Shown: positions 15,591 to 23,401 of the stretch, piece by piece
Position numbering within the stretch: the stretch's first letter is position 1
Layout: each line of letters opens with the position of its first letter
Assembly (NCBI GenBank): GCA_947586655.1
Contig: CANPXR010000005.1
Location: 1 to 32,935, forward strand
Direction: 5' to 3'
From: an uncultured Bacilli bacterium
Lineage (GTDB): Bacteria; Bacillota_I; Bacilli_A; RF39; UBA660
Length of the DNA: 32,935 bases
Notes under the pieces: model-generated
What the model saw: the letters and a program-made list of their open reading frames with translations, nothing else
Told to the model about the DNA's origin: nothing
Databases searched by the model: none
Position numbers and translations under genes: made by a program

Positions 15591-15606
15591 CAATAAACTA
15601 TTGCAC
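15591..15606 (-). terminator. Terminator overlapping the yneF stop
   Basis: GCAATA-N-TATTGC hairpin followed by a T-run on the minus strand. Confidence 0.55.
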
Positions 15607-15807
15607 TTTGTTCATTGCTTTCATTACTTGATTAACTTGTTTTTGACTAGGTGTTCTTCCCATTTGTTGCATCATTACCCTTATCATCTTTTCATTTATC
15701 GGTGGATTTTTCTTTAGGTATTTTTTCATGAACGTTTTAGCAACTAAAAATCCTATTACAAGACCAAATACAAGGCCAATTACGCACCATAAAATATTTC
15801 CCCACAT
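15598..15807 (-). CDS. yneF: YneF/UPF0154 family membrane protein
   Basis: 69 aa: N-terminal TM plus '[38 protein letters not shown]', the YneF signature. Confidence 0.9.
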
Positions 15808-15853: not shown

Positions 15854-16276
15854 TTATACAAGACTTTTCGTTGATACTTTACTAAGCCAAAAATAATCTT
15901 TGTTAATAAAATCACAAACAAAAACGTTACTTTCCTTTTGTAATATTTTAAAGAATTCAGTTATATTTTTATTTGTTTTAACCTTAATATAAGTATTATA
16001 AACCGTAAGCTTAGTTTTTTCTATTCCGTTATCTAGTATATGCTTATTAAGAGTTTTATAGTAGTTACTATCATAAGAATACTTCCTATATATTTCACTA
16101 TTAATTTCCGTTTTATTAAAGGCTACCGCCATTTGCTCAAACAACCTATATGATATTATGAAATCATTTTTACTAGATAAGGATATTTGCTCTAGCATTT
16201 TGTATAAATAGTAAGTCTTATTATAGTATAGTTTTGAAAAAGAATCATTAATCTTAAATAAATAATATACCCTCAT
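15854..16276 (-). CDS. sirA: SirA-like protein (sporulation inhibitor of replication, DnaA-binding family)
   Basis: Lies between tkt and yneF, as sirA (yneE) does in Bacillus. N-terminus MRVYYLFKINDSFSKLYY and C-terminus 'EFFKILQKESNVFVCDFINKDYFWLSKV' resemble SirA from memory. Start trimmed to 16276. Confidence 0.65.
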   Translation of the reverse strand: MRVYYLFKINDSFSKLYYNKTYYLYKMLEQISLSSKNDFIISYRLFEQMAVAFNKTEINSEIYRKYSYDSNYYKTLNKHILDNGIEKTKLTVYNTYIKVKTNKNITEFFKILQKESNVFVCDFINKDYFWLSKVSTKSLV

Positions 16277-16347
16277 AATTAAAAACACCTCTTTTATAGA
16301 ATATTACTAGTTCTATAAAAAAGATGTCGAAACATGGTTTTACGCAC

Positions 16348-18300: not shown

Positions 18301-18364
18301 TTAAACCCTTCCTATCCTTATAACGTATATTATAAGATAAAAAAGGATTTTTATCAATCAAATA

Positions 18365-18508
18365 CTAAGTATTTATAACGACGTTTTTTTCGGTTGAAAC
18401 CTGCTTAACATCACCTGGTTTTTCATATCCTACAATCCATATTGCGTTTATTATCGTTAAAACAACATAAATTAGCAACACTCCCTTATAATCTTTTAAT
18501 AACTTCAT
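18365..18508 (-). CDS. SOS-promoter-linked single-pass membrane microprotein (47 aa), positional counterpart of YneA: MKLLKDYKGVLLIYVVLTIINAIWIVGYEKPGDVKQVSTEKNVVINT
   Basis: Not in the ORF track. SD-like AAGGAAGTGG. Consensus-like promoter TTGACA-17-TAAGAT with a LexA-box-like site inside the spacer. Divergent from lexA. Confidence 0.75.
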   Translation of the reverse strand: MKLLKDYKGVLLIYVVLTIINAIWIVGYEKPGDVKQVSTEKNVVINT

Positions 18509-18546
18509 TATGACCACTTCCTTTTACTTTAACTCTTTACGTTTAA

Positions 18547-18575
18547 ATCTTATCACGAACAAATGTATGTGTCAA
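18547..18575 (-). promoter_or_regulatory. Promoter of the microprotein gene
   Basis: Minus strand TTGACA (18570-18575), 17-nt spacer, TAAGAT (18547-18552). Confidence 0.75.
18556..18569. promoter_or_regulatory. LexA-box-like site 1 (CGAACAAATGTATG)
   Basis: Resembles the Gram-positive SOS box GAAC-N4-GTTC. Half-site CGAAC is intact; the other half is degenerate. Sits between -35 and -10 of the minus-strand promoter. Confidence 0.7.
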
Positions 18576-18584
18576 TAGAAAATA

Positions 18585-18598
18585 AGAACATTTGTTTG
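18585..18598. promoter_or_regulatory. LexA-box-like site 2 (AGAACATTTGTTTG)
   Basis: GAAC-ATTT-GTTT, one mismatch to GAAC-N4-GTTC. Overlaps the lexA -35. Confidence 0.75.
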
Positions 18599-18624
18599 AC
18601 AATGTAAAGTAATTGTGTTATTAT
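18596..18624 (+). promoter_or_regulatory. lexA promoter
   Basis: TTGACA (18596-18601), 17-nt spacer, TATTAT (18619-18624). Confidence 0.75.
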
Positions 18625-22258: not shown

Positions 22259-23401
22259 TTATCTAACCAAATGCTTTTGTTCAAACGTTTTATTTTCAAC
22301 CGATACCCTTTGAACAAAGCCTAAGCATATTAGTAAATTAATCATAAATGAGCCTCCGTACGAGTAAAACGGAAGTGGAACTCCAGTAAGTGGTATTATA
22401 CCTAATACTCCTCCTAAATTAATCATAACGTGAAGGGCGATTAGCGTAGCAACACCATAACATATTATTGTTCCTTGTAAATTATATGACTTTCTACCTA
22501 TTAAAATTATTCTCCAAATCATTATAAAGTACACTAAAATTATAGCAACACCAACAATAAGGCCCATTTCTTCTATTATTATTGCAAAGATAAAGTCCGT
22601 GTGAGCTTCTGGTAAATACAGATATTTTTGCTTACTATTACCATAGCCACTACCAAGTAATCCACCACTATTTATCGCTATATAACCATTACACACCTGA
22701 TAACCAGTTTCCTGTCGGTACCTAGTGCATGGGTCTTTATAGTTAAACCTACTAATTTGGCTGCTAGTTAATCCTTTGCCAGTTACAAGCATTAAAAGCG
22801 CTAAAATAAGAACCGAAATAATGGTAAAAGTTGCCATTATAAACTTAGTTTTATTATCATACGGAACAATCAAAAATATAACCATGGTTATTCCAATTAG
22901 TATCATCATGGTACCAAAATCAGGTTGCTTAAAAACTAATAATACAAATACAAAAGGAACTATGAAAGGTACTAGTTTAGCAACGTTACTAACGTATTTA
23001 ATCTTCATCATTTTCTCAAACGTCAAAGCGAAAAATAAAATTAAAACGGTTTTTGCAAATTCACTAGGCTGAATACCAAATCCACCGATAAATAGCCAAC
23101 CGCTTACTCCGTTCATAACCTTCTCGTTTATAAGAACGTAGACCAAGGCCCCAGCAACTCCAAAAATCGCTAAATATACTAAGGACTTCCACTTTTTAAT
23201 CGGAGTTTTAATAAGCACTAAAAAGCAAGATAACCCTATGATAATAAAGAAAAGCTGTCTTTTAAAATAAAAGTAACTATCTGCTTTAGACATGTAAGCT
23301 TTTAAAGAAGAGGCACTACCTACCATCATTAAACCAAAAACGAGACTTATAACCATTAGTATTAATAATGGTTTATCTATTTTGCTAAAAGTTTTCTTCA
23401 T
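22259..23401 (-). CDS. FtsW/RodA/SpoVE-family SEDS peptidoglycan glycosyltransferase
   Basis: SEDS motifs 'GVSGWLFIGGFGIQPSEFAK', 'PEAHTDFIFAIIIEEMGLIVG', 'TGVPLPFYSYGGS'. Start trimmed to MKKTFSK at 23401 (AGGTGATAAC SD). Confidence 0.9.
   Translation of the reverse strand: MKKTFSKIDKPLLILMVISLVFGLMMVGSASSLKAYMSKADSYFYFKRQLFFIIIGLSCFLVLIKTPIKKWKSLVYLAIFGVAGALVYVLINEKVMNGVSGWLFIGGFGIQPSEFAKTVLILFFALTFEKMMKIKYVSNVAKLVPFIVPFVFVLLVFKQPDFGTMMILIGITMVIFLIVPYDNKTKFIMATFTIISVLILALLMLVTGKGLTSSQISRFNYKDPCTRYRQETGYQVCNGYIAINSGGLLGSGYGNSKQKYLYLPEAHTDFIFAIIIEEMGLIVGVAIILVYFIMIWRIILIGRKSYNLQGTIICYGVATLIALHVMINLGGVLGIIPLTGVPLPFYSYGGSFMINLLICLGFVQRVSVENKTFEQKHLVR

Follow-up and report, generated by a model that had tools for sequence, protein, structure and literature searches.

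Background

What is encoded by the short open reading frame (ORF) that lies between lexA and tkt in an uncultured member of the Bacilli, and does it belong with the division inhibitors found beside lexA in other bacteria? The SOS division inhibitors of Gram-positive bacteria adjoin lexA, span the membrane once and have little sequence in common (PMC6851548). YneA, SosA, ChiZ and DivS make up a functional class of such lexA-divergent single-transmembrane (TM) proteins. YneA binds TM7 of FtsW via its own TM segment and requires its LysM domain to inhibit; SosA, ChiZ and SidA have also been modelled on FtsW (PMC13396833). Genes of this size class can be missed, as they fall below usual gene-calling lengths.

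The DNA analysed here (the window) is a stretch of 32,935 nt that constitutes one contig of a 990-kb metagenome-assembled genome, and the genus to which it and its congeners belong is most likely Candidatus Aphodocola. An earlier note on this sequence had proposed that the ORF encodes a shrunken, LysM-less functional counterpart of YneA and SosA under LexA control. In a literature search whose coverage leaves out most subscription journals, no description of the gene in RF39/Aphodocola relatives was found, and the microprotein family has apparently gone undescribed.

Results and discussion

Organization of the locus

The minus-strand ORF was recovered with exactly the 47-aa sequence and coordinates previously quoted, and both promoters, as well as the two LexA-box-like sites (one within the spacer of the microprotein promoter, the other overlapping the lexA -35 element), lie where the earlier note had placed them (Table 1). 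That note had not included a promoter for tkt, which is located directly past the microprotein stop codon and is kept in most congeners. No terminator was found in the window between the microprotein ORF and tkt.

Table 1. Features of the lexA region, in window coordinates
Feature	Coordinates	Strand	Details or basis
yneF homologue	15598..15807	-	NF002503 E=6.6e-27, under the curated cut-off of that model
sirA (yneE) homologue	15854..16288	-	PF10747 E=1.4e-10
tkt, transketolase, 650 aa	16348..18300	-	conserved in relatives
tkt's own promoter, TTGATA-17-TATAAT	18329..18357	-	sequence; without LexA box
47-aa single-TM microprotein gene	18365..18508	-	ATG 18508, stop 18365-18367
Microprotein ribosome-binding site (RBS), AAGGAAG	18517..18523	-	sequence; 8 nt before ATG
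Microprotein promoter, TTGACA-17-TAAGAT, sigma-70-type	18547..18575	-	sequence
LexA box 1 (putative)	18556..18569		CGAACAAATGTATG on +, quoted also as CATACATTTGTTCG; in microprotein promoter spacer
LexA box 2 (putative)	18585..18598		AGAACATTTGTTTG on +; overlaps lexA -35 by 3 nt; 29 bp from box 1
lexA promoter, TTGACA-17-TATTAT	18596..18624	+	sequence
lexA, 203 aa	18650..19261	+	TIGR00498 E=4.2e-69
FtsW/RodA-family gene	22289-23365	-	PF01098, 265.8 bits

We take the gene order in Bacillus (B. subtilis) to be lexA, yneA, tkt, sirA/yneE, yneF. The window shares the order lexA-tkt-sirA-yneF with the microprotein gene at the place of yneA, and the claim of a position equivalent to yneA or sosA, divergent from lexA with tkt-sirA-yneF behind, is thus borne out. 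A homologue of sirA (sporulation inhibitor of replication) is encoded in a genome of 990 kb. On the other side of the locus, an FtsW/RodA gene lies approximately 3-4 kb from lexA, past comEC- and comEA-like ORFs.

Conservation, selection, and linkage to lexA

The reading frame is intact beside lexA in 16 of 17 congeners, with 42-70% amino acid identity; the remaining congener (G015) has only weak matches, located elsewhere in its genome. Among congener pairs, median pN is 0.228 and median pS 0.519, with pN below pS in 135 of 136 pairs. At the family level, where a lexA match is present in 132 of 145 genomes (a few of these being weak paralogues), an ORF was considered equivalent if it was divergent from lexA, had an RBS, and encoded one TM segment. 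Such an ORF occurs in 152 of 170 distinct lexA upstream regions that were long enough to judge, a set to which extra loci had been added and which includes close relatives that are not all independent, compared to 24 of 492 control windows scored in the same manner. The 152 family ORFs encode 34-56 aa (median 47) and start at a median of 133 nt from the lexA ATG. A TTGACW-type promoter is directed toward the microprotein gene at 135 of these loci, and the lexA promoter is present at all 152.

An iterative search gathers 144 of the 152 family proteins into a single profile, compared to 6-11 for segment-shuffled controls; the profile was trained on these same sequences. With the untrained genus profile, 35 sequences score at E<1e-3, 17 of them its own training rows, and no shuffled sequence does. 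In genomes that possess lexA, the best short-ORF match adjoins lexA in 11 of 13 cases, while a search of limited sensitivity gave no short-ORF hit at E<0.01 in the genomes that lack a lexA match (13) or have only a weak paralogue (one). The gene downstream of the ORF varies among family loci (tkt, yneF, polA-like, and others) while the ORF stays beside lexA, and the microprotein gene is therefore tied to lexA rather than to tkt.

Comparative sequence evidence thus indicates that the ORF is a real gene and is under purifying selection. A short frame in AT-rich DNA could arise by chance in the lexA-tkt spacer, but this explanation is already contradicted by frame conservation, by the pN and pS values, and by the excess over control windows, and its probability is negligible. 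A role as leader or regulatory element of tkt, without a functional protein product, would be compatible with the arrangement in the window, where the ORF is directly upstream of tkt and no terminator intervenes; however, the changing downstream gene, the separate and conserved tkt promoter, and selection at the protein level rule against a tkt leader peptide and leave this reading highly improbable.

Eighteen family lexA loci lack the microprotein by the criteria used (L034, L079, L080, L095, L097, L098, and others), and nine of these have no recognisable LexA box upstream. Outside the family, an inspection by eye of the ORF lists of sister family f8 revealed no comparable ORF beside lexA. 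In sister family f11, three loci (L218, L221, and L223) carry, divergently from lexA and ahead of a ynzC-like gene, an ORF for a single-TM protein of 57 aa with the pattern MFNK.....PFLEV.AYQ.K; it was not seen at L219 and L220, and profile searches gave no link between this ORF and the microprotein family.

Putative LexA operators

Using the pattern CGAACNNNNGTTCG and counting a site when at least 8 of 10 positions match, a site was found in 162 of 186 lexA upstream regions compared to 1 of 177 control segments. Two or more boxes are present at 110 of 152 loci with the microprotein gene versus 3 of 18 without it, and the boxes are separated by 28-29 bp in 87 of 105 cases. Each box in the window has 2 mismatches to the 10 positions of CGAACNNNNGTTCG, and with up to 2 mismatches the pattern is no commoner in the window's own genome than its reversed control (12 vs 14 per strand); single sites therefore count only together with conservation and context. 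On this comparative evidence, the identification of both boxes as LexA operators is well supported, and the conserved box in the promoter spacer upholds the proposal that the microprotein gene is under LexA control.

Features of the microprotein

An AlphaFold2 (AF2) model has a single helix at approximately residues 8-26, corresponding to a hydrophobic TM segment that contains no charged residues, in agreement with the one TM segment proposed previously. The following C-terminal tail of approximately 20 residues, which ends in V-V-I-N-T, was modelled with low confidence and without structure. In the genus alignment, Y7, Y14, and T18 never vary, N21 and W24 hardly do, and the conserved positions favour one face of the helix (conservation moment, permutation p=0.0095). 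The most conserved parts of the tail are the C-terminus (V, V, I/L, N) and V37. Family proteins have a mean N-terminal net charge of +1.8, which is positive in 88% of cases, and by the positive-inside rule these basic N-termini suggest an N-in/C-out orientation.

Relationship to YneA and other SOS-induced membrane proteins

The earlier description of a shrunken, LysM-less YneA counterpart was correct in part: the protein lacks LysM and its gene position matches, but descent from YneA finds no support. None of 31 family members matched LysM, and the NCBIfam YneA model NF010723 gave no match to the window protein and none in a scan of 61 members. A single match among 31 relatives (NF010723 E=0.068) was rejected as an indication of YneA homology, being at chance level and absent in the 61-member scan. 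The microprotein matched no Pfam or NCBIfam family significantly. Hits to NF010723 at E<1e-4 in the window's own genome all lie in frames 329-413 aa long and align to the LysM portion of the model alone; weaker hits are likewise in long frames, and no protein of YneA architecture was found elsewhere in that genome. On contig C53, positions 283-2485 hold a convergent pair of long frames (370 and 413 aa) in which LysM-like units are repeated. Shared ancestry with YneA thus cannot be shown from sequence, although position and logic match, and the best reading by analogy is that the microprotein falls in the same functional class as YneA and SosA without being a demonstrable member of the YneA family.

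Among the characterized systems, SosA of Staphylococcus resembles the microprotein in being divergent from lexA, LexA-controlled, single-TM, and devoid of LysM. Its C-terminus is outside and it is turned over by CtpA (PMC6851548), both of which we propose for the microprotein; going by its description, it is set apart by its length of 77 aa, compared to 47 aa here, and by a longer extracellular part, the membrane-proximal portion of which is needed for function (PMC6851548). YneA of Bacillus and Listeria shares the gene position, LexA control, and an N-terminal TM segment, and is degraded by CtpA (PMC13396833), a route that is only proposed for the microprotein. It differs in carrying an essential LysM domain, whereas the microprotein has neither LysM nor a match to the YneA model. 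SidA of Caulobacter, a 29-aa SOS-induced single-TM division inhibitor acting on FtsW (PMC4211646), is similarly tiny but belongs to a different phylum, and is likened here by description. The E. coli peptides DinQ and TisB are also LexA-controlled and single-TM (PMC3567139); they differ in their type I toxin-antitoxin locus, in depolarising the membrane, and in their unrelated genomic position.

Proposed function

We consider it reasonably probable, by analogy with SosA, YneA, and SidA, that the gene is repressed by LexA, belongs to the SOS response, and encodes a minimal division-checkpoint microprotein. Division inhibition itself is plausible by comparison with these three proteins (PMC6851548, PMC13396833, PMC4211646), while DNA-damage induction, topology, target, division arrest, and proteolysis are steps that we infer. 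In the undamaged cell, LexA bound at box 1 would block the microprotein promoter and LexA at box 2 that of lexA itself. Upon RecA-stimulated cleavage of LexA, both promoters would fire, with tkt keeping its separate promoter. The 47-aa product would insert N-in/C-out with one TM helix, and the conserved face of this helix (Y7, Y14, T18, and N21, together with W24) probably packs against a TM helix of the enzyme that makes septal peptidoglycan, which is most likely FtsW; septation would then stall, with the short outside tail possibly helping. CtpA, a PDZ-S41 protease, could plausibly recognise the microprotein by its conserved hydrophobic C-terminus (phi-phi-phi-N-x), and turnover by CtpA would thereby end the division block after repair. 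The genome encodes FtsW/RodA proteins, recA, and a membrane PDZ-S41 protease of CtpA type.

Given that YneA needs its LysM domain and SosA its extracellular part, a TM segment with about 20 further residues may, by the same analogy, not suffice for inhibition. We can only tentatively suggest that the microproteins, present family-wide beside lexA, form a distinct and very small class of division inhibitor in the SOS response, for which contact between TM helices is enough to arrest septation and the peptidoglycan-binding or long extracellular part required in YneA and SosA is dispensable, or else that the same gene acts on a target outside the divisome.

The main rival to a division checkpoint is an SOS-induced peptide like TisB or DinQ, a toxin or dormancy factor that would depolarise the membrane without acting on the divisome. 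DinQ, a LexA-controlled single-TM toxin of 27 aa that depolarises the membrane and is not a division inhibitor (PMC3567139), matches the microprotein in size, TM number, and predicted LexA control. However, it sits in a type I toxin-antitoxin locus with an antisense RNA, away from lexA (PMC3567139), whereas the microprotein gene is fixed beside lexA throughout the family, its RBS is canonical and its spacing of 133 nt steady, and its product has an uncharged TM segment, one helix face that is specifically conserved, and a C-terminus that is conserved too; a toxin is consequently rather unlikely. Slightly less probable still is an SOS-induced small membrane protein that does something else, for instance modulating a protease in the membrane, a signal of envelope stress, or the function of LexA or RecA. 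The tight linkage to lexA would suit direct involvement in the SOS circuit, but the characterized single-TM genes beside lexA in Gram-positive bacteria encode division inhibitors (PMC6851548), and the position is that of yneA.

The division-checkpoint reading suggests that a large family of gut Bacilli, mostly uncultured (more than 130 genera with lexA sampled), has a division checkpoint that responds to DNA damage; the one genome examined yielded no inhibitor of the YneA type. The approximately 150 diverse natural sequences of a candidate inhibitor of about 47 residues provide a data set for the minimal TM code that stops a septal synthase. This bears on a current question, as the TM part of YneA alone localises but does not inhibit (PMC13396833), yet SidA works with 29 aa (PMC4211646).

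LexA-box-like sites elsewhere in the genome

The best box match in the window's own genome is located just upstream of recA. Three further boxes lie just ahead of the starts of genes for Bro-N proteins (L243, L244, and L245 on contigs C12, C31, and C32), one of them DinD-like (resembling E. coli DinD). These genes may form a small SOS regulon.
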